Shown: piece after piece, positions 6,042 to 34,000 of the stretch
Layout of the letters: every line of letters starts with the position of its first letter
Numbering within the stretch: position 1 is the first letter of the stretch
Source of the DNA: Calothrix anomala FACHB-343
GTDB taxonomy: Bacteria; Cyanobacteriota; Cyanobacteriia; Cyanobacteriales; Nostocaceae
Length of the DNA stretch: 64,000 nucleotides
Reading direction: 5' to 3'
NCBI RefSeq assembly: GCF_014696435.1
Contig: NZ_JACJQG010000032.1
Span: 28,470 to 92,469, forward strand
The notes under the pieces: model-generated
Told to the model about the DNA's origin: nothing
The model's input: the letters and a program-made list of their open reading frames with translations, nothing else
The model's database searches: none
Made by a program: the position numbers and the translations under genes

Positions 6042-6074
6042 CTTTGACGGCGTTTTACAGAGCAGGTGGTATGT

Positions 6075-7052
6075 ATGGAACAAATTCCCGTTTCACTATG
6101 GACTTTGGTTGCTGGGATATTAGTTTCCGCAATCAGCATTTGGATTGGTCAGCATCACAGTCTGTTACCTGTACAGGCGTCGTTACAAGCGCCGATGGTA
6201 GACGGGTTTTTTAATGTGATGTTTACGATCGCGATCGCTCTTTTCTTGGTAGTGGAAGGAACGATTGTGATTTTCTTGTTTAAGTACCGTCGCCGTCGGG
6301 GAGATAATACCGATGGTGTTCCCGTTGAAGGTAATGTTCCTCTAGAAATTTTCTGGACTGCTATCCCCACATTGATTGTCGTATGTTTGGGCATCTACAG
6401 CGTAGATGTTTTCAACCGCATGGGCGGCTTAGAACCAGCCGGTCATCCTCATGGCGGAACTCATGCGGCGCACATGAGCGGTAGTGCTATAGCGGCTACT
6501 TTGGATGAACCAGGAACAGTTCAAGCTGCGCCAAAAATTGGCATCGGCGCAACATCTAAAACCCAAGACAAAGCACCGGATTTAGTTGTTGATGTCCAAG
6601 GGATGCAGTACGCTTGGATTTTTAACTATCCCGATAGTGGCATTACTGCTGGGGAATTACACGTTCCTGTTGGTGCTGATGTGCAACTCAATTTGTCAGC
6701 ACAGGATGTAATTCACTCGTTCTGGGTACCAAATTTCCGCATCAAGCAAGACGCTATTCCTGGTATCGCTACTCAATTGCGGTTTGTCGCCACAAAGCCT
6801 GGTACATATCCTGTAGTTTGCGCTGAACTGTGCGGTGGTTATCACGGTTCGATGCGATCTGAGGTAATTGTGCATACTCCAGAAGAGTATCAAAGCTGGT
6901 TAGCAGAAAACCAAATTGCCCAAAAGCAAGATTTGCATCAAGCGATCGCAATTAACCCAGCTGACTTATCAACATCCGAGTTTCTTGCACCCCATGTAAA
7001 AGATTTGGGCGTGAATGCAGCAACTCTAGAGTCAATGGTCAAGAGTCATTAG
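6075..7052 (+). CDS. coxB: Cytochrome c oxidase subunit II (heterocyst-type Cox2)
   Basis: About 325 residues from the ATG at 6075; a GTG at 6066 gives a three-residue extension and is less likely. There are two N-terminal membrane helices (~10-30 and ~45-70), then a periplasmic cupredoxin domain. The CuA ligands are visible: a histidine in VIHSFW near 213 and CAELCGGYHGSM near 249. An unusual His/Gly/Ala-rich loop (HPHGGTHAAHMSG) sits between the membrane part and the cupredoxin core. It accepts electrons from cytochrome c or plastocyanin for O2 reduction. First gene of the coxBAC operon. In Anabaena the equivalent oxidase next to patB and fdxB is heterocyst-specific and lowers O2 around nitrogenase. 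Confidence 0.95.
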   Translation: MEQIPVSLWTLVAGILVSAISIWIGQHHSLLPVQASLQAPMVDGFFNVMFTIAIALFLVVEGTIVIFLFKYRRRRGDNTDGVPVEGNVPLEIFWTAIPTLIVVCLGIYSVDVFNRMGGLEPAGHPHGGTHAAHMSGSAIAATLDEPGTVQAAPKIGIGATSKTQDKAPDLVVDVQGMQYAWIFNYPDSGITAGELHVPVGADVQLNLSAQDVIHSFWVPNFRIKQDAIPGIATQLRFVATKPGTYPVVCAELCGGYHGSMRSEVIVHTPEEYQSWLAENQIAQKQDLHQAIAINPADLSTSEFLAPHVKDLGVNAATLESMVKSH

Positions 7053-7110
7053 TCATTAGTCATTGGTCATTAGTCATTGGTCATTAGTCATTGGTCATTA
7101 GTCATTGGTT
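7023..7110. repeat. AGTCATTGGTCATT tandem repeat after coxB
   Basis: A run of seven-base units alternating AGTCATT and GGTCATT begins at the coxB stop region and fills the first part of the coxB-coxA gap. It is followed by GACAAAGGACAAACCACAA-type repeats up to about 7215 and a short palindrome (GCGCCGGCGTCCGGC) near 7225-7240. Confidence 0.8.
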
Positions 7111-7275
7111 ATTGGAATCAAGGACATAGGACAAATGACAAAGGACAAACCACAAATGACAAAGGACAATGACAAACCACAAATGACAAACCACAAATGA
7201 CAAATGACAAAGCGCAAAGTCTGAGCGCCGGCGTCCGGCGATCAGAACTTTGTAAGAAGGACAAAGGACAAATAC

Positions 7276-8955
7276 ATGACAAAAGTAGAATTTCCGCGAA
7301 ATACGCCACCAGATAAAAATAAAGGACAAAATCCGGTGGTTGGTCACGCTGCACATCCCACAGCTTGGAGATGGCAGGATTATTTTACCTTTAATGTGGA
7401 TCACAAGGTCATTGGGATTCAATACCTGGTGACAGCGTTTGTGTTCTATATTATTGGCGGTTTGATGGCAATGGCGATTCGGGTTGAATTGTCAACACCG
7501 GAAGCTGATTTCATCGACCCCAATCTTTACAACGCTTTCATGACAAACCACGGGACAATTATGATTTTCCTGTGGATTGTTCCCAGTGCCATTGGGGGAT
7601 TTGGGAACTTCTTAGTACCGCTCATGGTTGGTGCTAGGGATATGGCTTTCCCCAAATTGAATGCGATCGCCTTTTGGTTAAACCCACCAGCAGGTTTGTT
7701 ATTACTTGCTAGTTTTATCTTTGGCGGTTCTCAATCTGGTTGGACAGCTTACCCACCTTTAAGTTTAGTCACAGCACCCATCGCTCAAAGTATGTGGGTT
7801 TTGGCGATCGTGTTGGTAGGGACTTCCTCAATTTTGGGTTCCCTGAACTTTGTCATCACCATTTTGATGATGAAAGTTCCCAGCATGAAATGGGATCAAT
7901 TACCTTTGTTTTGCTGGGCAATTTTAGCAACTTCCGTACTAGCACTTGTCTCTACACCCGTGTTAGCAGCCGGTTTGGTGCTGTTATTGTTTGACCTTAA
8001 CTTTGGTACTTCCTTCTTTAAACCAGATGCAGGCGGTAATGTTGTCCTTTATCAACATTTGTTCTGGTTCTATTCTCACCCGGCAGTATATTTAATGATT
8101 CTGCCCATCTTCGGCATTATGTCCGAAGTAATTCCCGTTCACGCACGTAAACCAATTTTTGGCTATAAAGCGATCGCTTATTCCAGCTTGGCTATTTGCG
8201 TTGTCGGGTTATTTGTTTGGGTTCACCACATGTTTACCAGTGGTACACCCGGCTGGATGCGGATGTTCTTCACCATCTCCACCTTACTTGTTGCCGTGCC
8301 CACAGGCGTGAAGATTTTCGGCTGGGTAGCTACATTATGGGGTGGTAAGATTCGCTTTACCAGTGCCATGCTATTTGCGATCGGCTTGTTATCCATGTTT
8401 GTCATGGGCGGCTTAAGCGGCGTGACAATGGGTACTGCTCCCTTTGACGTACATGTCCACGATACATATTATGTAGTGGCACATTTCCACTATGTACTAT
8501 TTGGCGGTTCTGTATTTGGGATTTACGCCGGTATTTACCACTGGTTCCCCAAAATGACTGGTCGGATGTTAAATGAAACTTGGGGAAGAATTCACTTTGC
8601 CCTGACTTTCATCGGTACAAACCTTACCTTCTTACCCATGCACGAACTAGGTTTGCAAGGTATGCCACGTCGCGTGGCAATGTACGATCCCCAGTTTATT
8701 AATCTTAACCAGATTTGTACCTTTGGTTCAATCATCCTGGGGCTTTCAGTTATTCCCTTTGCTTACAACGTGATTCAAAGCTGGCTCAAAGGGCCTTTAG
8801 CAGGTGATAATCCTTGGCAAGGCTTGACCTTAGAATGGACAACCGCTTCCCCACCAGCAATTGAAAACTGGGAAGAATTGCCCGTTGTTACTCACGGCCC
8901 TTACGACTACGGTCATGATCATGTGCCGGTAGGTACGCCAGAAGTTAGCGCGTAG
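7276..8955 (+). CDS. coxA: Cytochrome c oxidase subunit I (heterocyst-type Cox2)
   Basis: A 559-residue heme-copper oxidase core with about twelve membrane helices. The conserved metal ligands are present: the heme a histidine in NHGTIM near 92, the CuB histidine with its cross-link tyrosine in HPAVY near 267, the CuB HH pair near 317, and the HFH heme pair near 402 (DTYYVVAHFHYVL). The Tyr in HPAVY marks an A-type, proton-pumping enzyme of mitochondrial-like type. It reduces O2 to water in the thylakoid or cytoplasmic membrane. It follows coxB after a repeat-filled gap of ~220 bases and precedes coxC. An AAAGGA-like ribosome site lies ~8 bases upstream of the ATG. Confidence 0.97.
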   Translation: MTKVEFPRNTPPDKNKGQNPVVGHAAHPTAWRWQDYFTFNVDHKVIGIQYLVTAFVFYIIGGLMAMAIRVELSTPEADFIDPNLYNAFMTNHGTIMIFLWIVPSAIGGFGNFLVPLMVGARDMAFPKLNAIAFWLNPPAGLLLLASFIFGGSQSGWTAYPPLSLVTAPIAQSMWVLAIVLVGTSSILGSLNFVITILMMKVPSMKWDQLPLFCWAILATSVLALVSTPVLAAGLVLLLFDLNFGTSFFKPDAGGNVVLYQHLFWFYSHPAVYLMILPIFGIMSEVIPVHARKPIFGYKAIAYSSLAICVVGLFVWVHHMFTSGTPGWMRMFFTISTLLVAVPTGVKIFGWVATLWGGKIRFTSAMLFAIGLLSMFVMGGLSGVTMGTAPFDVHVHDTYYVVAHFHYVLFGGSVFGIYAGIYHWFPKMTGRMLNETWGRIHFALTFIGTNLTFLPMHELGLQGMPRRVAMYDPQFINLNQICTFGSIILGLSVIPFAYNVIQSWLKGPLAGDNPWQGLTLEWTTASPPAIENWEELPVVTHGPYDYGHDHVPVGTPEVSA

Positions 8956-9278
8956 AAATTAGGGGCTAGGGGTTAGAAAAAAGAGATTTCTATGAATGGC
9001 TAGCTTGAAAGAGTGGACTCCTACTGAGTAAAAATACTATTTCCTAGACTTTACCCTGAATCAATTTCAAATCTCTGGCTGCGTTGCTATCCCGCCTGGG
9101 AATCAATTCCCAGGCTAATAGCTAAAGTCTACTGAAGTAGACTAAGCAACATATTTCAGTCCACTTGAGTGGACTTAGACTATTAGCCCGGAACTTCAGT
9201 TCTGGGCGGGATGACACCACAGCACGATACTTCCTCCTAGCCCCTTCATCAGCAATTCATGACCACTAATTAAACAAT
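8956..9278. other. coxA-coxC spacer with multi-hairpin element
   Basis: About 320 bases without a gene. Positions 9091-9210 form a compact element bounded by CCCGCC and GGCGGG. It contains four consecutive small palindromes: CCTGGGAATCAATTCCCAGG, GTCTACTGAAGTAGAC, GTCCACTTGAGTGGAC and CCCGGAACTTCAGTTCTGGG. Because it lies inside the cox operon it could attenuate coxC or protect mRNA ends; that is inference. Confidence 0.75.
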
Positions 9279-9869
9279 ATGACCATAGCGACAACAACCA
9301 GCGAACAGCACCAAGAACATCACCCAGATTTACGAGTCTGGGGATTGTTAACCTTTCTCGTTTCCGAATCCCTGATGTTTGGGGGATTTTTTGCCACTTA
9401 CTTGTACTTGAGAGGTGGTACAGAAGTTTGGCCTCCCGAAGGAACAGAGGTAGAGTTATTTCTGCCGACAATTAACACCATTATTCTGGTGTCTAGTAGT
9501 TTCGTGATTCACTTTGGCGATAAGGCAATTAAAAAGAATAACGTCAAAGCCATGCGGTTTTGGTACATCCTCACCGCAATTATGGGTGCGGTATTCTTGG
9601 GCGGTCAGGTGTATGAATATGCCACACTAGGCTATGGCTTGACTACCAACGTTTTCGCCAACTGCTTTTACTTGATGACAGGATTCCACGGTTTGCACGT
9701 GTTTGTGGGACTGTTATTAATTTTAGGTGTGTTTTGGCGATCGCTCCGCCCAGGCCATTATTCTGCTACCAAACACACAGGCATTGAAATGGCAGAAATT
9801 TACTGGCACTTTGTAGACATCATCTGGATTATTCTCTTTACCCTAGTGTACATTCTCACTTTGTTTTAA
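9279..9869 (+). CDS. coxC: Cytochrome c oxidase subunit III (heterocyst-type Cox2)
   Basis: A 196-residue, five-helix subunit III, the short form usual in cyanobacteria and Bacillus-type oxidases. The family features are visible: an N-terminal membrane segment with the LVSESLMFGGFF block, and the conserved FHGLHVFVGL and EIYWHFVDIIWI motifs. It stabilises the CoxA/CoxB core in the membrane. It is the third gene of the cox operon, separated from coxA by the multi-hairpin spacer. Start ATG at 9279; no strong ribosome-binding site is visible. Confidence 0.96.
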   Translation: MTIATTTSEQHQEHHPDLRVWGLLTFLVSESLMFGGFFATYLYLRGGTEVWPPEGTEVELFLPTINTIILVSSSFVIHFGDKAIKKNNVKAMRFWYILTAIMGAVFLGGQVYEYATLGYGLTTNVFANCFYLMTGFHGLHVFVGLLLILGVFWRSLRPGHYSATKHTGIEMAEIYWHFVDIIWIILFTLVYILTLF

Positions 9870-12423: not shown

Positions 12424-15400
12424 CTAATTTGCTAAAAATTGCTCGATTAAGGCGGTTAATTGCTTGAGTTTAACGGGTTTAGCTAAATATTCACTGGCTC
12501 CAACGGCGAGACATTTTTCGCGATCGCCAAGCATAACCATTGCTGTGAGGGCAATAATTGGTATTGTGGCTAGTTGCTGATTTTGGCGAATTTGCTCAAT
12601 TGCTTGTAAGCCATCAACTATTGGCATTTGGATATCCATGATAATTAAGTCGGGATTCTGGCTGTAGACTAAGTCGATAGCTTCTTGGCCATTTCTCGCC
12701 ATGATTATGCGATAACCTTTGGCTTCTAGGTAACTAGAGATGGTGTTGATGTTGGCTTCGTTATCTTCGGCTAACAGGATTAGGGGTGATTGGGTGTTGG
12801 GTGCAGTAATGACTTGTGGTGGAGCGATCGCTTCTAAGTTGGGTGCTATATTTGCAGATGGGGTAAAGTTTAAAGTTGACAGTTGCTGAATCGGACAAGC
12901 AGAGTAAGGCAAATATATGCTAAAGCAGCTACCTTGACCGAGTTCGCTTTGTAAGCTGATATACCCGCCATGCATTTCTGTGATGCGTTTGACTAAAACT
13001 AACCCTAGTCCGCTACCTTCGTATTTACGGTTTAGGCTGCTGTCAATCTGGACAAAGGGTTGGAATAGTTTAGCGCGATCGCTGGGAGCAATACCAATAC
13101 CAGTGTCGGAGACGGAAAAGATAATCCAGTGATTTTCCTCTGTTGTCTCACCCACATTTTGTACAGTTACTTCTAAGCAAACTCGACCGCCACTAGGGGT
13201 AAATTTAATTGCATTGGATAATAGATTGATTAGTACTTGCTGGATGCGTCGCTCATCTACAGCGATTTCTTTTTCGAGTTTTGCCAAGCTCAGATGTAGA
13301 TGAATTTGTTTTTTAAATGCTTGTTGTTTAACTATATCTAAACTAGTTTTGCACAGCTGGGCTACGGAAACTTTGGCGATTTGTAATTCCAGCTTATCGG
13401 CTTCAATTTTTGACAGTTCGAGAATGTCGTTAATTAAAGCTAAAAGATGCTGTCCGCTACGTTCAATGGTGGCGATCGCTTGTTGCTGTTGGTGGTTTAA
13501 GTAACCCAATATCATATCTAGTAAACTTTCTGACATCCCCAAAATTGCGTTTAGGGGGGTGCGTAGTTCGTGACTCATATTGGCGAGGAACTCGTCTTTG
13601 AGGCGGGTAGCGCGACGTAGTTCGGCATTTGTCCGTTCTAAACCCTGTTCGTATTCTTTTTGTATGCGGATATCACGCATGATAGTGGAGAAAAATTCTA
13701 CTTCTCCTTGAGGGCATTTATGGGCAATTATTAATTGAGAAACGGGAATTTCTTGTCCTTGGGCATCTAATAAAATGTTTTCTCCCAACCAGCTACCATT
13801 GGTAATTGCTGCGGGTATAGCTTGCTGTTTCAGCAATTCTACACCTTGTTGGGGATGGTAATCGCTGGGTTTGTACTGTGTAATTTCTCCATCATCCAGT
13901 CCCCGCAGGCGTTTTAATGCGCTATTGTTCCAGATGGCGTTACCAGCTACATCAGCTATCAGGATGTAATCAGTTGAGGCTTCTAGTAAGGCAATCAGGC
14001 GATTTTGCGATGCTTCTAAGCGTTTGCGTTCTGTAATATCTGCAGCATAGCCGACAATTTCAATGGGATTTCCTTGGGAATCGCGCACTAGGCGGATTTC
14101 ATTCCACATCCAGATATAATGTCCTGCTTGATGCAAAAAGCGGTATTCATTAATTAGCTGCCCTTGTGCAAACAATTCTGGCATTTTCGCCAGTAATTGA
14201 GGTAAATCTTCTGGGTGGACATGGTTGATCCAAAAGCTAGACTCAGTCAAAAATTCTGCTGCAGTGTAGCCTGTGACATTATAGATATTGTCACTGACAA
14301 AGGTAGTCCCATAATCGCGATCGGGTTTACAGCTAAAAATCACAGCCGGACTAGCAGAGAGTACAAATTGCAATCGTTCTTTGAGGAGGAGATTTTCTTG
14401 TTCGGCTAGTTTGCGAGCTGTAATATCTTGGGCTGTACCAATGATTTGCTGCACTTGTCCTTCTGGATCGCGGCTAAAAATTGTATCCCAACTGTATAGC
14501 CAACGCCATTGGCCGTTAGCATCCCGCATCCGATATTCAAATTCGATAATTTCCCCATTTGCAGCCATGGCGATGCTTTCCCGTTGGGTAACTAATCGCT
14601 CTTGATCTTCAGGGTGTAACAAGTCTTGCAGGAAGTTAGCCCCCATTGCTTGCACAGCTTCCGGAGTATAGCCAAGAACTGAGGTAATCTCGCGGTTTAC
14701 GTAAACATTGCATTGGCTTTGCAAGTCGTAAAGATAAAGCATATTCGGTGACGCATCGGCAATTTGTTGAATAAATCGCTGACTGTCTTCTAATGCTAAT
14801 TCTGCTTGTTTGCGATCGCTAATATCTGCGGCATAACCGACAATTTCTACAGGGTTACCGTAGCGATCGCAAACTAAACGTAGTTCATTGCGCAGCCAAA
14901 TATAATATCCGGCTTTGTGTGAAAAGCGGTATTCATGAATGTGATATCCCTGCTCAAATAATTGAGACATGCCTTCTAATAACCGTGATACATCCCCTGG
15001 GTGAACGCGATCAATCCAGAAACTAGAATCAGATAAGAACTCTGCTGAGGTATAACCAGTTACATTAACGCTATTCTCGCTGATAAAAGTAGTACCGTAA
15101 TTTTCCTCGGTTGTACAGGTAAAAATAACAGCAGGATTAACAGCCAGTAAAAACTGTAACCTTTCCTTGAGTTGTTGATTTTCCTGTTCGGCTAGTTTGC
15201 GATCTGTAATATCTTGGGCTGTACCAATGATTTGTAAGACTTGCCCTTCAGCATCGCGGCTAAATACAGCATCGCGGCTATAAAGCCAGCGCCAATTACC
15301 ATCCGCATGTCTCATGCGATATTCTAATTCAATGATTTCCCCATCTGCAGCCATATGTAATCTTGCTAATCTGCTGGGTAGTTGGTTGAAATCATCGGGG

Positions 15401-18400
15401 TGTAACAAGATGGGAAACATATTCTCTCCTATTGCTTGCACAGCTTCAGGGCTGTAGCCGAGAATTGAGGTAATCTCACGATTCACGTAAATATTACGTT
15501 GTGTTTGCAAATCGCAAAGATAAAGCATATTTGGCGATGCATCGGCAATTTGTTGAATAAATCGCTGGCTTTCTGCTAATGCTAATTCTGCTTGTTTGCG
15601 ATCGCTAATATCGGCAAAATATCCTACAAATTCAATCGGCCTTCCTTCCTGATTCCGTACTAAACGCAGTTCATCCCCGATCCAGATATAGTATCCTTGT
15701 TGATGTAAAAAGCGATACTCGTGAGTATGATGTCCGGCTACAAATATTTCGGGAAGTTTGGCTAAAACCCAAGGGCGATCCTCAGGGTGAATATGGTCAA
15801 TCCAGAAGCTAGATTCTGCTAAAAATTCTTGTTGGCTATAGCCAGTTATATTGTAAATATTTTCACTAATAAAGGTAGCACTATAATTGCCCTCAGCTTT
15901 ACAGGTATAAATTACTGCTGGGCTAGAAGTAATTAAAAATTGTAATCGTTCTTTTAATTGTTGATTTTCTTGCTCGGCAATTTTGCGTTGCGCAGCTTGC
16001 CGATAGGCATCGCTAATATCAGCAAAGTAACCAATAAATTCAATGGGCGTTCCTTGCTGATTACGTACTACATGCAGTTCTGAGCGTAACCAGATATAAT
16101 GACCCTGCTGATGGCGGAAGCGATATTCATCAATATGCGATCCTGATGTTAATAATGGAGAATGAGCTAGTAAACCAGGGAGATCGTCTGGGTGAACGCG
16201 ATCGATCCAGAAGCTGGATTCAGCTAAAAATTCTGCTGGGGTGTAACCTGTGACGTTGTAGAGATTGTCGCTGATAAAAGTAGCACCATAATCGCCTTCA
16301 GGCTTACAGGTAAAGATTACGGCTGGACTAGCAGAAAGTAAAAATTCTAAGCGTTCTTTTAATTGTTGATTTTCTTGCTCTGCCAGTTTACGAGCGGTGA
16401 TATCAGTTAAGGTGCCAATGTAGCCAATGACTTGACCATTGGCATCAACTTCTGGGGCAACTTGGACGTAGAACCAATTAATACTGCCATCTGGACGTAA
16501 ATGTCTACCCTCACCTTGACCGATTGTATAATTGCCAGGAGTCATTTCAATATAACTTTCCATCCATTCAGCGAGGCGTTGCTCTCGATCCTCTGGATGC
16601 AAAGCTTCAATCCATCCCTTACCTAAAGCCGATTCTTTGGATCTGCCAGTCATTTGACTCCAGCGATCGTTAACATAGACGCAGTTTAAAGGCGCATCAA
16701 ATCGAAAAATTGCCACAGGAGCGGCTGCGGCTAAGGTAAGATAACGACGTTTGCTTTCTTTTAGCGCTGCTTCAGCTAATTTGCGTTGGGTGATGTCGGT
16801 TTCCGAACCAGTCATGCGAATGACTTGTCCAGATTCATCCCGCAATACTTGACCGCGATCTAGCACCCACATATAACTGCCATCTTGACATTGAGTGCGA
16901 TATTCAGTTTCAAAAAACTCAGTTCTCCCAGCAAAGTGGTCTTCAACAGCAGCCATAACGCGATCGCAATCATCTGGATGTATCCGGCTTAAACACTCAT
17001 CTGGGGAATCACTGATTTCATCGTCGCTAAAGCCACGCATCTGCTTCCAGCGCTGAGAATAAAATATTTTGTTATTCTTGAGATCCCAATCCCAAATACC
17101 ATCATTAGTTCCCCTGAGAGCTAATTGCCAACGTTCTTCACTAGCTTGCAAGGCTGCAGTGCGCTCGGCAACTCGGTTTTCTAATTCTTGGTTTAATTGC
17201 TGTAAACTTTGGGTAGCTAAATGGCGTTCAATGGCAATACTAGCAATATTTGCTGCTTGAGTAACAGTTTCGCATTCGCACAGATTAGGCGTGCGGTTTT
17301 CTCGATAATAAACGCCAAATACACCTAATATTTCCCCATTACTGCCAATAATTGGTACTGACCAACAGGCTTTTAAGCCTTGGGCTAAAGCCAAATCTCG
17401 ATAGTTTTGCCACAGTGGATCGCTAGCAATATCAGAGGTAATGACAGTTTCTTGACGAAAAGCAGCTGTTCCACAGCAACCCATTCCTTCATCAATGGGT
17501 AGTCCATTGATTTGTTGCATGTAGCTGTCTGATAATTGGGTACTAATGCCAAAATTCAATTTGCTGTTACCGTCGTGCAGCATAATAGAACATACGCCAT
17601 TGTCTAGCTGCATTTCGATGGCTTGCAGCAGATCGTGCAAAATGTCTGTGAGTGCTTCGGCTTTGGCAATGCGCTCTAAAATTGCGTTTTGTACTTGTAG
17701 TTGTTGGTAAGCGGTGGCTTGCTGAATCGCGATCGCTAATTGTACAGAAATCTCATGCAGTAAGGTTAATTCTCCTGGTTGCCAATGGCGATAGTCTGCA
17801 CATTGATGACCGACTAACAAACCCCATAATTTATCTGCTACTAAAATTGGGACTACTAAATTAGCTTTGACCTGAAATTGTTCTAATAAGCCTAAATAAC
17901 AATCAGCGTAACCATAGTTATAAATGTTATCAATGGCTAGGGTTTTACCATTACGATATAACTCTGCTGCTTCCTGGCGAAAACAAGGATCGTGAATAGT
18001 AGCTGCTTTTAAGGCTTGCCAATTCCCAGTTACAGACTCAGCGACAATTGTGCCACTCCAATCGGGTTGGAACTGATAAACTAACAAGCGATCGCACTGC
18101 AAAAAGTCCCTTAAAGCAGTCACCGCCGTATCTAATACTTCTTCTAAGTTGAGAGAAGCGCGAATTTTGTTAGCGATTTGTGTTAATAATTGTTCCCTGG
18201 CTACTTGTTCTTGAATTTTGGCGGTACGTTCCTGAACTAATCGCTCTACCAAAGCAGAAATCGTCATTGGGTTAAAAACACTCAATATTAAGCTTTGGGT
18301 GACAATACCTAATAATTCACCATCATCGCGGGTAACAATCACTTGATTGATTTGCTGCTGTTGCATTAATTGCCATACTTCTCCCAGGTAACTCTCTACA

Positions 18401-19134
18401 CCTACAGTATCCACAAATCTACCCATATGATTTTGGGCTGTAAATGCAGTTAAATCCTGGTCTACACCCAATATCTGCACAATGTCCCGTTCGGTCACAA
18501 TCCCTAAGGGAATAACTTTTGCATCAGAATTATCAACAATGACTACCGAATTAACGCCGCGATCGCTCATTAACTCTGACAATTCCGCTAGAGTTGCTGT
18601 AGGCGCTGCTTGGACGACAGATCGATCCATGACATCAGCTGTCGTCAGTAAATTCAAAAGGTCAAAGGGGCGCAACAGTTGACGTAAACTATCGTGGGTG
18701 AGTAGCCCTACCACCTGACCTTGGTGATCTATTAAAGGTAAATGACGAATGGGATAGTGCTGAAATAAACTCAGGGGTACAAAAATGTCAGTAAAATTTG
18801 TGACTTGCAAAGTGCGCACTGGGTAAGACATCACTTCCGCGATCGCTATTTCTGCTAAATTTTGTCCAGAACTGCTGAGGCGTACTAAATCGAATTGCGT
18901 AAAAATGCCTAATAATTTTGTATCTTCTATTACTAGAACACAACTATGTTGAGCTTGTAATAGTAGCGAATTAGATGTAGTATTATTTTCAGTTGTTAAA
19001 TTATTAGTAGTAGTACCTGCATTCATCAACGCGATCGCATCAACCACAGTAGCATCAGGCGCGATCGTCAAAGGATCGCGAATAATCGCCGTTGCCAATT
19101 CAGCTGGAAGCCATAAATTCGCAGGGGTAAACAT
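12424..19134 (-). CDS. Giant hybrid histidine kinase (4 CBS, 2 GAF, 9 PAS, HisKA-HATPase-REC)
   Basis: About 2236 residues from the ATG at 19134; a TTG at 19176 would add 14. Approximate domain order: two CBS pairs (1-290), GAF 1 (~320-480), GAF 2 (~480-650), nine PAS/PAC units (~665-1840), HisKA with the phospho-accepting His in MSHELRTPLNAILG near 1855, HATPase (~1960-2080; N and G boxes visible) and a receiver with Asp in DLIIMDIQMP near 2165. There are no membrane helices, so it is cytoplasmic. Four PAS units are near-copies of one type and two of another, interleaved, showing internal duplication. The CBS pairs could sense adenine nucleotides, which is inference. The gene stands alone, convergent with the nitrogenase-associated gene. 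Confidence 0.93.
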   Translation of the reverse strand: MFTPANLWLPAELATAIIRDPLTIAPDATVVDAIALMNAGTTTNNLTTENNTTSNSLLLQAQHSCVLVIEDTKLLGIFTQFDLVRLSSSGQNLAEIAIAEVMSYPVRTLQVTNFTDIFVPLSLFQHYPIRHLPLIDHQGQVVGLLTHDSLRQLLRPFDLLNLLTTADVMDRSVVQAAPTATLAELSELMSDRGVNSVVIVDNSDAKVIPLGIVTERDIVQILGVDQDLTAFTAQNHMGRFVDTVGVESYLGEVWQLMQQQQINQVIVTRDDGELLGIVTQSLILSVFNPMTISALVERLVQERTAKIQEQVAREQLLTQIANKIRASLNLEEVLDTAVTALRDFLQCDRLLVYQFQPDWSGTIVAESVTGNWQALKAATIHDPCFRQEAAELYRNGKTLAIDNIYNYGYADCYLGLLEQFQVKANLVVPILVADKLWGLLVGHQCADYRHWQPGELTLLHEISVQLAIAIQQATAYQQLQVQNAILERIAKAEALTDILHDLLQAIEMQLDNGVCSIMLHDGNSKLNFGISTQLSDSYMQQINGLPIDEGMGCCGTAAFRQETVITSDIASDPLWQNYRDLALAQGLKACWSVPIIGSNGEILGVFGVYYRENRTPNLCECETVTQAANIASIAIERHLATQSLQQLNQELENRVAERTAALQASEERWQLALRGTNDGIWDWDLKNNKIFYSQRWKQMRGFSDDEISDSPDECLSRIHPDDCDRVMAAVEDHFAGRTEFFETEYRTQCQDGSYMWVLDRGQVLRDESGQVIRMTGSETDITQRKLAEAALKESKRRYLTLAAAAPVAIFRFDAPLNCVYVNDRWSQMTGRSKESALGKGWIEALHPEDREQRLAEWMESYIEMTPGNYTIGQGEGRHLRPDGSINWFYVQVAPEVDANGQVIGYIGTLTDITARKLAEQENQQLKERLEFLLSASPAVIFTCKPEGDYGATFISDNLYNVTGYTPAEFLAESSFWIDRVHPDDLPGLLAHSPLLTSGSHIDEYRFRHQQGHYIWLRSELHVVRNQQGTPIEFIGYFADISDAYRQAAQRKIAEQENQQLKERLQFLITSSPAVIYTCKAEGNYSATFISENIYNITGYSQQEFLAESSFWIDHIHPEDRPWVLAKLPEIFVAGHHTHEYRFLHQQGYYIWIGDELRLVRNQEGRPIEFVGYFADISDRKQAELALAESQRFIQQIADASPNMLYLCDLQTQRNIYVNREITSILGYSPEAVQAIGENMFPILLHPDDFNQLPSRLARLHMAADGEIIELEYRMRHADGNWRWLYSRDAVFSRDAEGQVLQIIGTAQDITDRKLAEQENQQLKERLQFLLAVNPAVIFTCTTEENYGTTFISENSVNVTGYTSAEFLSDSSFWIDRVHPGDVSRLLEGMSQLFEQGYHIHEYRFSHKAGYYIWLRNELRLVCDRYGNPVEIVGYAADISDRKQAELALEDSQRFIQQIADASPNMLYLYDLQSQCNVYVNREITSVLGYTPEAVQAMGANFLQDLLHPEDQERLVTQRESIAMAANGEIIEFEYRMRDANGQWRWLYSWDTIFSRDPEGQVQQIIGTAQDITARKLAEQENLLLKERLQFVLSASPAVIFSCKPDRDYGTTFVSDNIYNVTGYTAAEFLTESSFWINHVHPEDLPQLLAKMPELFAQGQLINEYRFLHQAGHYIWMWNEIRLVRDSQGNPIEIVGYAADITERKRLEASQNRLIALLEASTDYILIADVAGNAIWNNSALKRLRGLDDGEITQYKPSDYHPQQGVELLKQQAIPAAITNGSWLGENILLDAQGQEIPVSQLIIAHKCPQGEVEFFSTIMRDIRIQKEYEQGLERTNAELRRATRLKDEFLANMSHELRTPLNAILGMSESLLDMILGYLNHQQQQAIATIERSGQHLLALINDILELSKIEADKLELQIAKVSVAQLCKTSLDIVKQQAFKKQIHLHLSLAKLEKEIAVDERRIQQVLINLLSNAIKFTPSGGRVCLEVTVQNVGETTEENHWIIFSVSDTGIGIAPSDRAKLFQPFVQIDSSLNRKYEGSGLGLVLVKRITEMHGGYISLQSELGQGSCFSIYLPYSACPIQQLSTLNFTPSANIAPNLEAIAPPQVITAPNTQSPLILLAEDNEANINTISSYLEAKGYRIIMARNGQEAIDLVYSQNPDLIIMDIQMPIVDGLQAIEQIRQNQQLATIPIIALTAMVMLGDREKCLAVGASEYLAKPVKLKQLTALIEQFLAN

Positions 19135-19667
19135 AGGCGAAAACAAAAGGTGAAACGCGCCTGAGACTGTAATCAAAAGTAAAGCAGATAAACAGTTAAC
19201 GCGATGTCAACTATTGTATCTTGTGGTTCTTTGCCTGTTGAGCTTGAATAGTCAAATATCAACAACGTTTAGTGGAAAAAATTTCTATTTACCAATTGCT
19301 TCATGATGGTGATTTCTCCGTAAAACTCGCAAATGCTAAGAATTGCTGACTCTCTTGAGAACAAAGCAAAACAGCATAATCAAGATGCTAATGGAGTTTA
19401 ATATTACTTTTGATTAATGAACTTTCATTAAAATTTTTTACTTTTCAGAGTTTGGCACAAAAATAGTGTATTTTATCGCATAAAAATTTTAATTTATGAT
19501 GAAATCTTCAAGGAAAGATCAGCTAATTTTCTAACTAGTCAAATCAATAGCGCTGAATCTACTAAACTCTGTTGAATAAGACACGAGGTAAGAGGTATAA
19601 AGCAAAAAGTTGAATTAAAAATTTGAAAAAAAATCTCATAAATAGTAGGGGCATGGCAGTGCCCATA

Positions 19668-29062: not shown

Positions 29063-30796
29063 TTACTTAGCCTGTAGCAAACTCATAGGCGCGACAACAG
29101 CCTTAGCTCCTAAAATTCTAGAGTACAATTGCCCAGCGCGATCGTGGAGAATAAAATTAGCAGTTAAACCAGTTGCTTTTTTCTCCTTCACCTCACAAGA
29201 AACATAAAATGTTTCATCAACTGGTATTGCCCTATACTGTTCAGAAGTCGTTAACTGTCCCGGTAAACAAACTTCATTATGATAATGACTCAACCATACC
29301 CATAAAGGCTGTGTACTCAAGTCAGTTGCATAGGGATTGTGCCAATGAATCGGGAATTGTCCTTGCTGTTGTGGAGTAATTTGTCGCCAAAAACATTCCG
29401 TGGTAATTTTTTCCGAGTTAATATTTAAAACCCGTTGAATTTCTTGAAAACAAGGGCCATGAAATAATGTAGCCGGGCCATTTTGATAGAAGCCTTTACC
29501 TGTAGTTGTAATGATGCCATCTTCTGTGAGATTCACTGCATCATATATCGGTGCAACAGGCAATTCTCGCACCAGCTTAATAGTAGAAGTGAAATGATAA
29601 TGGGTTTTACCTTCAGGGGTTTTACTGAAGATAGTTGTTTGAAATTCAATAAACTCGCCGTCAACTTTGGCAATTTCTTTGAGTTGCAAAATATGTTCTT
29701 TGGCTACCGATTCATTAAAGGTAATTCCCTTAAGAACTTTGAAATCTTTGCAACTGAAATATCGATAACCTGGGTAAGCTTCTTCACAACCATTAATCAT
29801 CCAAGACATCGCACAGGTAGCAGGAACTACTGCATAACCAGCAATTACATGATCCTGTAAAAATGGATTGGCTTCGACGGTGATGCGACGACGGACGTAA
29901 TGAGTTTTTAGTTCGGGATCTAAAGGTGCGGGTGGGGGAATTAACGGACTACCAATTACTAATTGGGTAGTGTCGTGATGTTTGGGATGTAGTTCTTTAA
30001 CTAACATTTTGGTTCCCACTTCCACGGGGATAATATCTATTCCCCGTTCTGCAAAGGCTTTTTTCAGTTCTGGGGTTACCATTCCGCTATCCCAACCGCC
30101 CCAGTTAATGGCGACTACGTGACAGTTGGGATAGTACTGTTTCATCAAGTGGGCGGATTTGTTGAGGATTTCGTTAGCGATCGCATAATCGGATTGACCG
30201 ATATTGCCGTAAAATCCTGTAACGGAGGAGAATAATACTAAATGCTGGAGTTGTTCTGGGGGAACGCAATCTAAGAGGTTTTCTAGTCCTTGAACTTTGG
30301 CGGTGTAAACTTTTTCAAAATCCTGTTCTGTTTTCTTTTCGATTAATTTATCGGCTAAGTTCCCTGCACCATGTATGATGCCGGTAATTGGCCCCATACG
30401 GTTGACTACAGCCGCCAAGTTTTCTTTTAATGCTTGGGTATCGGTGACATCGACGCTTAAATATTCGGCTGTTGCGCCTGTTTGTTGAATGGCGGCGAGG
30501 GTTTTTTTGATTTCGCGGCTGGAGTGGATTTTGTTATAGATTTTTTGCACGTTCATGGGTGTGGGTTTCTCACCTTGGGCGAGAAGATTTTCCATGATAC
30601 GTTTTTTTAATGCAGGTTCTTCAAAGCAGTTTTGGGCGTATTCTGGTTCGGTTTCTAATAGTTGGGAACGTCCCAGGAGGATGAATTTACAGGGTTGTTT
30701 TTTGGCGAGTTCAATTGTGCATTCGGCGGTGATTCCTTTTGCGCCACCGCTTACTAGAAATACTGATGAGGGACGAATAGGTGTTTGGGTTGTCAT
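29063..30796 (-). CDS. Ketoreductase (catalytic half) plus dehydratase
   Basis: A 577-residue protein. Residues ~10-285 are an SDR-type ketoreductase catalytic domain with NADP motif SGGAKGITAE and active-site LFSSVTGFYG...SDYAIANE (Tyr near 202). Residues ~300-560 are a hot-dog dehydratase with HVIAG...VVPA around His317. In PKS/Pfa systems the catalytic KR half is normally preceded in the same chain by a structural half; here that half is the C-terminus of HglE. It reduces 3-keto groups and dehydrates the product. Position suggests equivalence to Anabaena hglF/hglG, but I leave the symbol blank. ATG at 30796. Confidence 0.88.
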   Translation of the reverse strand: MTTQTPIRPSSVFLVSGGAKGITAECTIELAKKQPCKFILLGRSQLLETEPEYAQNCFEEPALKKRIMENLLAQGEKPTPMNVQKIYNKIHSSREIKKTLAAIQQTGATAEYLSVDVTDTQALKENLAAVVNRMGPITGIIHGAGNLADKLIEKKTEQDFEKVYTAKVQGLENLLDCVPPEQLQHLVLFSSVTGFYGNIGQSDYAIANEILNKSAHLMKQYYPNCHVVAINWGGWDSGMVTPELKKAFAERGIDIIPVEVGTKMLVKELHPKHHDTTQLVIGSPLIPPPAPLDPELKTHYVRRRITVEANPFLQDHVIAGYAVVPATCAMSWMINGCEEAYPGYRYFSCKDFKVLKGITFNESVAKEHILQLKEIAKVDGEFIEFQTTIFSKTPEGKTHYHFTSTIKLVRELPVAPIYDAVNLTEDGIITTTGKGFYQNGPATLFHGPCFQEIQRVLNINSEKITTECFWRQITPQQQGQFPIHWHNPYATDLSTQPLWVWLSHYHNEVCLPGQLTTSEQYRAIPVDETFYVSCEVKEKKATGLTANFILHDRAGQLYSRILGAKAVVAPMSLLQAK

Positions 30797-30822
30797 TTGA
30801 TTTTTAAATGCCGATAATTAGA

Positions 30823-31010
30823 TTTGTTTTCTCTGCGTCTCTGCGTCTCTGCGTGAGAGAAAGGATTTTTAAACGAACCGCCAAGACGCCAAGGACGCGG
30901 AGGAAGAGTTTTAGAGAGCCTTTCGCGCAGAAGTCTCTTTGCGCCTTTGCGTGAGATAAAAAATTTTTATTGAACCGCAGAGGACGCAGAGAACACAGAG
31001 GAAGAGGAGT
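30823..31010. repeat. Repeat cluster between hglE and KR-DH gene
   Basis: The 302-base gap contains CTCTGCGTCTCTGCGTCTCTGCG, AACCGCCAAGACGCCAAGGACGCGGAGG and AACCGCAGAGGACGCAGAGAACACAGAGG in series. It ends with a CTTGTCTCCCTTGTCTTCC run that continues to the hglE stop (~31055-31097). These are three variants of one cyanobacterial repeat family, placed exactly at the split of the ketoreductase. Confidence 0.8.
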
Positions 31011-31098
31011 TTTAGAGAGTTTTTTGCACAAGGGAGATGAAGAAGTTAGTAATTTTTTCCTCCTTGTCTCCCTTGTCTTCCTTGTCTTCCTTGTCTTT

Positions 31099-34000
31099 TT
31101 ACTTGTCAGATGCGGTGACTAGGGTAACTCTTCCTTGAGTACTGTAGCCAACTTCACTGAGATAAAGGTTTGAGTCGTGCAGTTCGGCAATGATGTTTTG
31201 TGCCGCTTGTTGAGCATCAAGGGCAGGACTAATATCAACTGCTCTGGTGTATACTTTAGGCCATTCCCATCTGAGTGTTTTGGTTAGTCCAGCTAAACCT
31301 GCTCCGATGACGCCAAAGTTGGTGTTATGCTCAAAGCCGAAGGCTCCGTCTAAGCGAGCTACTGTGATAAAACTACTGCGTCCGTAACGTGCGGCTTCAT
31401 TGAGGGATTTTTTCAGGTGTTTGGCGATGAAGAAGATGTGTTTGACGATCGCCTTTTCTTGTTCAATGTAAGGAAGTGTCTTTGTGTGACTGACTTGGAA
31501 TACGGGGTGTATATGGATGAAGGCTCCAATGCTGCCGATATTGGTGGCTATAGCAGATAATTTATCTTGCAGTAGTTGTTCGCTTAAGTCGGCTAGGGGG
31601 ATGCGGGTAACGCTGGGGGGTAAGAGTGCTTGTTGGGGAATTACCGATTGGGGGAAGCTAAGAACTACAACTTTCCAGCCTTTATCTACTAGGGATTGTG
31701 CTACCACCGAGGTGGTGAGGGAACCATCGTCGGTAATTAACGCGATGTGTCCCTCTGGTAAGTTGAAGTCTAAGTAATCGGGTTGGGGAAGGTATTTGAG
31801 TTTGATGGGTAGACGTTGAACGTTATGTTCTACATCTATTATCGGCTCGTCGTCAAACTCAAATTCATGCTTTTTTTTTTCACCTCCAGCCAGCTTCTGG
31901 AGATAATCGACTATTTGTCCGATGGTGCGTAAGTCGCCGAGTTCTTCGATGTTTGGTTTGGGTAAGTCGGGGTACATTTCTTGCATCGCCCCCAGGATTT
32001 CTACTCGTTTGATGGAGTCGATTCCTAAGTCGGCTTCCATGTCCATTTCCAGTTCTAGCATTTCTACTGGGTAACCAGTTTTTTCACTAGTAATGTTGAG
32101 TAAGGTTTGACCGATATCTGCGTAGTCGGCGCTAGATGTTTCTACTTCGGGTTCGGGGGTGAAGGCGACTACTGGCTCAGGTGCAGCTACTACGGTTTCT
32201 ATAGGTGCAACTGGGGCGACTGGTGCGGGTGCTGTAACTACGGTGGCTACTGGGGCGACTACTTGAGGAATTTCCGCAACTTCTTGTACGGGGGTTGTTA
32301 CGGGAGCTACGGCGCTATTACCAGCAGCGTGGGTTTGCAGATACTCGACTACTTGACCAATTGTGCGTTTTTCAGCTAATTCTTCTAGGTTGGGCTTGGG
32401 TAGGTCGGGGTATAATTCTTGCAATCCGCCGAGGATTTCTACTCGTTTAATGGAGTCGATTCCTAAGTCGGCTTCCATATCCATGTCCATCTCTAACATT
32501 TCAATGGGGTAGCCTGTTTTTTCACTGGTGATGGCTAACAGGTTAGTACCCAGTTGAGATAAATCGACGGTGCTGGATGCAGCTACAGGTGCGGGTGCGG
32601 GTTCGGGGATGAAGGCGACTGTTTCGACTACAGGCGCAGGTGCGGCTACAGGTGCAGGAATCTCAACGACAGGTTGAGGGGGAATTTCCACAACTGGGGG
32701 TGCGGGAATTTCGGCTACGGGTTGAGGTGCGACAATTTTGGGAGCGGAGCCATTTTTGCTTACAGGCTCAATTTTTGGCTCAATTTTCGGCTCAACTACT
32801 GGTGTGGTGAGAGTTTCGACAATTTTCGCGGTAAGGGGAACCGGTGCTTCGGTAACGGGTTCGCTGACAAAGGGTAATGTTACCTGGGGTAGGGTAATTT
32901 CTTCACCAGAAACTACATGAGAGTATTCTTGCTGAATTAGTTGGAAAAAGTTTTTGGTATATTCGATTTGCTCTTGCAAATACTGCTCATGAATGCGGAG
33001 GGTTTCACCTTGTTGGGAATGAAACTGCATCATGCTGCGCTCTAAGCTTTCGGTGACAACTTGCTTAATTTTGGCGGTTTCCGCAGAGGTTTTAGCTTGA
33101 GCGAGTAAGGCGTTTTGTTGTTGCATCAGTTGGAAAAATGTTTTGGCATATTCCATCTGATGATTGAGATATTGTTCGTGAACTTGTAAATTTTCGCTTT
33201 GATTGTTCTGAAATTGAGCCAGGAGATATTCTAAACTTTCTAGAACTCTTTGATGATTTACAGGTTTTTCTGGTGTTTGCATCTTTGATTCCTGGGCGGG
33301 TATTTGTAAAAGAGTCGCAGGATTCATTTGAGGCTTGGGTTCTGGAGCATAAGTGACGCCGTTCATGACTGGGGTTGGTGCGGTGACGGTTTTCTTATGT
33401 CCGTTAGATTTAATGGGTGTGGGATTTACAGGTTCTATGTTCACAGGTGCAGGTGAAGGTGCAGAGAATTCAGGAGTACTGGTAACTGTAGGTGCGGGTA
33501 CAGAAAATTCGGGGGTGCTGGTAATTGTGGGTTCTGGGGTGCTAGCTAACTTGACTTGATGTCCGTTTTGCAAAGCTTGGGGGAAGGCGTTTTTGGTTTT
33601 TTCGGAAACGTAATTAATCCCGTTTAATTTGACAGTTAGCGCCTTTTTCTTTTCGTTTTCGGCTGCGGGGATAACAGGTGGTAGTTGATAAGGGTCGAGA
33701 TTTTGCAAATTCATCCCGACTACACGCAACTGTACAACCGCTTCTCGCAAAGAGCGATCGCTATTCTTTTGGGTGCTGGGGTTCAAGGAAATGGTAAGAT
33801 GTGGGCGATCGCCTAAAGTATCTTTGACTAAGTTGCTCAGTATTCTGCGGGGGCCAAATTCGACAAAGCAGTAACCACCAGCCGCATAGATATTTTCAAT
33901 CTCCTGCTTAAACAACACCGAGTTAGATAGGTGAGTTTCCAGGGTTTTTTGAATTATTGGCGATTCTTGGGGATATTTTTGCCCAGTAACATTACTGAAA

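Follow-up and report, generated by a model that had tools for sequence, protein, structure and literature searches.

A window of 64,000 nucleotides from Calothrix anomala FACHB-343 (contig NZ_JACJQG010000032.1, positions 28,470 to 92,469) carries a polyketide synthase (PKS) cluster in which the two halves of a ketoreductase (KR) are encoded by two adjacent genes, hglE and an hglF-like gene. The C-terminus of HglE is the structural, non-catalytic half (KRs), and the following HglF-like protein begins with the catalytic half (KRc). Inside hglE, a run of ten adenines (A10) lies between the second acyl carrier protein (ACP) stretch and KRs, and it is a candidate slippage or frameshift site.

The hgl-type cluster and the two ketoreductase halves

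In HglE, a Pfam scan recognizes a ketosynthase (KS), an acyltransferase (AT) and two stretches of ACP; in the protein downstream, it recognizes a KR and a PKS dehydratase (DH) (Table 1). The genes that follow encode a KS, another protein of the KS type, a reductase of the PfaD type and an ACP-reductase protein. The window cluster thus has the hgl gene order around HglE and HglF (KS-AT-ACP, then KR-DH, KS, KS-like, PfaD-type and ACP-reductase), and it is of the hgl type. PMC11804610 defines an hgl island by seven or more homologs of the 19 genes of the Anabaena island, and describes hgl-like islands as seven genes in five open reading frames (ORFs), with mention of gene fusions or fissions.

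Table 1. Positions in the window of the genes, spacer elements and A-run features
Feature	Position	Strand	Basis
hglF-like gene, 577 aa: KRc (about residues 10-285), then dehydratase	29063..30796	-	ORF + Pfam
Spacer separating the KR halves, 302 bases	30797..31098	.	
Dispersed repeat copy 2	30829..30918	-	
Dispersed repeat copy 1, about 90 nt	30936..31027	-	
hglE: KS-AT-ACP-ACP-KRs, 1827 aa	31099..36582	-	ORF + Pfam
HglE stop codon	31099-31101	-	
KRs, structural non-catalytic ketoreductase half, HglE C-terminus	31102..31860	-	degenerate short-chain dehydrogenase by profile
TAA, +1 frame, 29 nt past the A run	31839..31841	-	
TGA, -1 frame, 3 nt past the A run	31865..31867	-	
A10 run GAA AAA AAA AAG, HglE residues 1568-1571, candidate slippage/frameshift site	31871..31880	-	

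The initial annotation had described the HglE C-terminus as a KR structural half without catalytic residues and the next protein as the catalytic half followed by a dehydratase, and both descriptions were borne out. The HglE tail gives no KR match in the Pfam scan; its profile matches short-chain dehydrogenases/reductases (SDRs) with a best E-value of 2.9e-8, and in two SDR alignments Phe stands at the Tyr position of the YxxxK motif and a residue other than Lys at the Lys position. The HglF-like protein carries a glycine-rich motif and K167, S191, Y204 and N208 in the usual motifs (the catalytic Tyr had been placed at residue 202). By our reading of the motifs, these four residues would form the catalytic tetrad of KRc. 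Active KR domains are described in PMC5331325 as possessing a Tyr/Ser/Lys/Asn tetrad. The pair therefore has the Rossmann-like KRs without catalytic residues and the KRc with catalytic motifs of a PKS-type KR; the third attribute, a single chain, is lacking in the window, where two ORFs encode the domain, and is present in single-chain relatives.

Modelled by itself, KRs folds with a predicted local distance difference score (pLDDT) of 85.9 and a predicted template-modelling score (pTM) of 0.86. The model of a natural single-chain relative is a standard PKS KR, with KRs and KRc in one overall fold, and the position corresponding to the gene boundary falls in a low-confidence linker. Across 14 pairs, the ratio of nonsynonymous to synonymous substitution rates (dN/dS) is 0.055-0.516 for KRs and 0.028-0.200 for KRc; the four pairs that involve the window gene give 0.06-0.11 for KRs, and the three KRs pairs above 0.25 have dS below 0.07, the highest values going with small dS. 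These ratios show that KRs is under purifying selection. Because they are low and yet above those of KRc in 13 of the 14 pairs, KRs is retained, but less tightly than KRc.

Distribution of the split and content of the spacer

At E <= 1e-60, the HglF-like protein has matches in 99 of 388 genomes at the level of the order, in 216 of 218 within the family and in 49 of 386 across the phylum; these sets overlap. The 150 scorable loci retrieved, a part of all matches, comprise by open frame 114 split loci, 29 single-chain loci and seven with an intact KR and a break ahead of it, and KRs was found in 110 of the 114 split loci. Four loci (L017, L075, L128 and L132), in which KRs was not found or the match was broken, are scored as split by open frame only and were left out of the trees together with L129; L002 and L003 (other SDRs) were dropped, and L001 was replaced by the window sequence. 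In a 145-row tree (all trees were built with FastTree or quick IQ-TREE runs), the clade of the window contains 87 rows, all of which are split at the same boundary, the spacers measuring from tens of bases up to 1.7 kb. Its sister clade has single-chain KR forms, which we take to be the hgl-like islands of PMC11804610, and three rows within it are split again (L092, L094 and L097, with 153, 25 and 270 bases from the stop to the start of the match). The fused form that the initial annotation proposed to look for thus exists in close relatives.

The outgroup rows are single-chain, and split and one-chain rows alternate in the tree, so that seven changes of KR state are needed in the 145-row tree and eight in an 85-row tree. 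Forcing all split rows together was rejected by the AU test (p-AU 6.6e-5; 31 of 48 rows), which implies that fission, fusion or both recurred. A model with fusion and fission is moderately preferred to fission alone (2 dlnL 6.5), a value that depends on a tree with long outgroup rows. Twenty extra loci chosen among split-sized matches are all split, as their selection predicts, and 80 loci retrieved with a single-chain query, which favours one-chain forms and returned several loci of the main set, comprise 57 with a one-chain KR and 23 with a split one. The same split point, without an A run, occurs in three metagenome-assembled genomes (MAGs) labelled Chloroflexaceae or Anaerolineae (L218, L224 and L226).

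The spacer had been described as 302 bases of three tandem repeat variants; its length and repeat content were confirmed, and the repeats proved to be two full copies of about 90 nt and a short GACAAGGAA-type tandem. When the gap was compared by BLAST with the genome that carries it, at least 51 matches were found (one to itself, two internal and at least 48 elsewhere), counts that are lower bounds because 40 of 495 first-look candidates were scored, and the repeat is thus more frequent in the genome than expected by chance. One repeat core also occurs elsewhere in the cluster, in two other gaps (23311 and 28770/28778). The 110 spacers range from 0 to 1675 bases with a median of 195, lengths that rest on partly guessed starts (poorly guessed for L092, L094, L097 and L108). 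Ten spacers come from the genus and its neighbour; three of them, including that of the window, contain two repeat units and seven contain one. Among the 106 spacers of at least 50 bases, 94 resemble another spacer and 32 share pieces with that of the window; outside near relatives the shared pieces are mostly short and some are reversed, as expected of dispersed repeats. The spacers of L006, L007 and L145, in the next nearest rows, have no detectable similarity to the window spacer.

Some spacers hold genes. A membrane-type ORF of 150-210 aa, with a weak CarboxypepD_reg-like match under the Pfam cut-off in the two scanned, is present in nine of the 110 (L049, L062, L064, L065 and L068-L072) and in six of the later loci L233-L241, the two sets together spanning 150-225 aa. 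Two spacers (L074 and L080) contain a gene for a PapA-like acyltransferase of about 470 aa between the KR halves, and two others (L121 and L149) as well as one later locus (L248) contain a FabG-like SDR gene there. The initial annotation had held that a common split point with unrelated spacers would mark the split as ancestral: the split point is common to the whole clade, and the spacers are unrelated only in part, since the frequency of the repeat family in this gap counts against calling all of them so. The KR split is old and widespread and was not made by repeats.

The A10 run that joins KRs to the second ACP

The run in hglE is the only A10 of the window, whose shuffled versions contain 3.05 on average, and in 13 loci with 203,613 bases the run was present 13 times, together with four other A9 runs. 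Within the 87-row clade it is A10 and in frame in 83 rows, A11, A9 or A8 and in frame in one row each, and A9 and out of frame in one (L070). Both lysine codons of the run are AAA in 87/87 rows with zero synonymous steps, as compared with 45-93% AAA and 4-20 synonymous steps at ten other conserved lysine columns; the last lysine codon is AAG in 77/87 rows. In all 86 in-frame rows the other two frames reach stops within 38 and 20 nt. The predicted short HglE of the window would end 3 or 29 nt past the run, at a distance of six residues and more from residue 1561, the last of the second ACP match. The site hence shares with dnaX-type sites at least nine A's in the coding strand, conservation at the nucleotide level (as judged from the lysine columns) and stops in both other frames.

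In the loci with an intact KR and an interruption ahead of it, the break lies at the run. Among 146 loci with KRs data, 91 have an in-frame run of A8-A11, 25 have a run behind which KRs is out of frame, and 30 lack any run of at least seven A's; for L100 and L120, the zero frame is assigned from open stretches of only 37 and 43 codons. The 25 out-of-frame loci span several families. Twenty with A9, one with A8 and one with A10 share the shift required (-1, or one additional A in the RNA), and three A10 loci (L081, L083 and L097) require the opposite shift. Most of these KRs readings lack a start of their own, as a start codon is absent as far as 90 nt into KRs in eight, lies only inside KRs in 15 and lies ahead of it in two. 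In the single-chain-query set, 11 of 80 loci are out of frame, all of the -1 type and six of them outside the main set; of 20 later loci, 19 have an in-frame A10 and one (L245) an out-of-frame A11. L070 (A9) and L245, which are out of frame within the A10 clade, are variants or assembly errors. In two MAGs, labelled Gammaproteobacteria (L223) and Gracilibacteria (L216), a synthase of cyanobacterial appearance has an A11 or A9 run that is out of frame, a case of mis-binning or transfer.

Outside the cluster, the window encodes the cytochrome oxidase subunits COX2, COX1 and COX3 (6066-9869), and, next to the cluster, a hybrid histidine kinase of 2250 aa that contains numerous PAS and GAF domains as well as CBS domains (12424-19176, minus strand).

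A probable ketoreductase in trans and a candidate slippage site

We consider it probable that HglE and the HglF-like protein jointly form one PKS-type KR, with the gene boundary in a linker and a slippage-prone A run ahead of KRs. The sequence itself shows two halves with one shared boundary and spacers between them, purifying selection, an A run and relatives in which KRs is out of frame; these features suggest that the halves assemble in trans in the cell, that they have ketoreductase activity, and that the run slips, possibly to some use. In this scheme, the C-terminal KRs of HglE would dock onto the KRc at the N-terminus of the HglF-like protein, the dehydratase would be supplied by that second protein as well, and the gap would be ordinary intergenic DNA settled by repeats and, in some lineages, by genes. 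Since the boundary lies in a flexible linker, the join would be dispensable and would have undergone loss, and probably regain, on several occasions. The evolved, trans-complementing KR that the initial annotation offered as one of two options is thus favoured by the single boundary in 87 rows, the conserved halves, the low dN/dS and the modelled linker.

The single-chain relative shares its KRs and KRc fold with the KR domains of modular PKSs (MlnE 5d2e, PksJ 5ktk and EryAI KR1 2fr0), whereas the window encodes the two subdomains in two genes. In human fatty acid synthase (8eyi, chain range 1110-2111), the KR halves are likewise apart in sequence and yet assembled, but they are parted by an insertion within one chain and those of the window are two proteins. 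Polyunsaturated fatty acid (Pfa) synthases and hgl-like islands have identical domains in identical order in the available passages of PMC11804610, in which neither the split KR nor the A run is described.

It is also tempting to speculate that hglE contains a programmed slippage site that yields two synthases per gene, with and without the KRs dock for the KRc-dehydratase protein, a proposal for which we put the chances at about even. By slippage at the run, part of HglE may stop right after the second ACP without the dock, and in the A9 relatives the default would be reversed, the long form requiring the shift; HglE is most likely made, as we infer, both with and without the dock. The cell would thereby set, at the RNA or the ribosome, the share of synthase able to reduce keto groups. 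According to PMC5009743, runs of at least nine A's cause RNA polymerase to slip, the dnaX gene of Thermus exploits this with stops in both other frames, and in some bacteria a reversed arrangement gives the long product via the shift; slippage has been proposed for Nostoc PCC 7120 insertion sequence (IS) elements with 8-10 A's (PMC1088944). The dnaX systems, with slippage in Thermus thermophilus and a -1 shift at A_AAA_AAG in E. coli, resemble hglE in the A run at a domain boundary, the nearby stops, the two predicted products and the reversed default in some relatives. They differ in that hglE encodes a polyketide synthase.

The main variant of this proposal is a possible, though less probable, ribosomal -1 shift at A_AAA_AAG as in E. 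coli dnaX in place of slippage by RNA polymerase. GAA AAA AAA AAG does contain A_AAA_AAG, and GGAGGT stands immediately 5' of GAA in 59/87 rows; however, a Shine-Dalgarno-like stretch at <=14 nt is present in only 4/25 out-of-frame loci as against 68/87 clade rows, and no strong fold is predicted downstream (mean z -0.65 and -0.48, plain shuffles). Downstream RNA structure, considered as a frameshift stimulator, gave no strong signal. It is rather doubtful that A10 is kept for the EKKK protein sequence or by codon preference, with no effect on frame: AAA makes up 74% of the lysine codons of these genes and the residues are conserved, but codon preference of this kind leaves 4-20 synonymous steps at other lysines where the run has none, and KRs lies out of frame behind the run in 25/146 loci of several families. 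We also regard it as unlikely that KRc works without KRs, for example as a FabG-like oligomer, with KRs in another role such as a scaffold, because KRs is present in 110/114 split loci and is fused to KRc in relatives whose chain models as a standard PKS KR. A phase-variable tract altered by slippage in DNA replication is slightly less likely still, since L070 and L245 are out of frame inside the A10 clade as it would predict, but A9 is fixed out of frame in whole lineages with the KRs reading conserved. Very improbable, and rejected, is the second option of the initial annotation, that a repeat recently inserted in this lineage broke up a single KR gene and left a decaying or accidental pair: dispersed repeats make up most of the gap and 32 other spacers share pieces, but the split is constant in all 87 clade rows while copy number varies among congeners (most have one unit), the spacers of the next nearest rows are dissimilar, other lineages hold genes in theirs, and both halves are under purifying selection.

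Several observations weigh against the joint KR and the slippage site. SDRs such as FabG function without a KRs half, and the KRs profile resembles whole SDRs; the model is of one chain of a relative and not of a two-protein complex of the window pair; and dN/dS of KRs exceeds that of KRc in 13/14 pairs, which indicates weaker constraint. The run is missing from four split loci (L104, L105, L107 and L108) and from most of the single-chain loci, and the out-of-frame singletons L070, L245 and L097 may be assembly errors or variants. The invariant glutamate column of the run is not special, two other Glu columns being likewise without synonymous change. With stop-distance limits that were set post hoc, 100% is reached by the column of the run and by the one beside it among 399 columns, whose median is 19%; in nearness of stops the run ranks 17th of the 399 by mean distance and second by largest distance. 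Alternative-frame stops as the sole evidence for slippage were weakened by this column scan with mean distances.

Among open-licence PMC papers, none was found on a split KR or on slippage at the A run, and none with hglF or hglG as whole words. Of the two findings, the A run is the more novel. PMC11804610 could not link keto or hydroxyl positions to island composition; if HglE is indeed made with and without the dock, this may be a hidden cause of keto versus hydroxyl positions in heterocyst glycolipids. A domain that is split at one place across a large cyanobacterial clade and joined in near relatives makes the cutting and rejoining of PKS domains directly testable. Furthermore, if the A run slips, recoding would set the composition of a polyketide synthase that is required for nitrogen-fixing cells.
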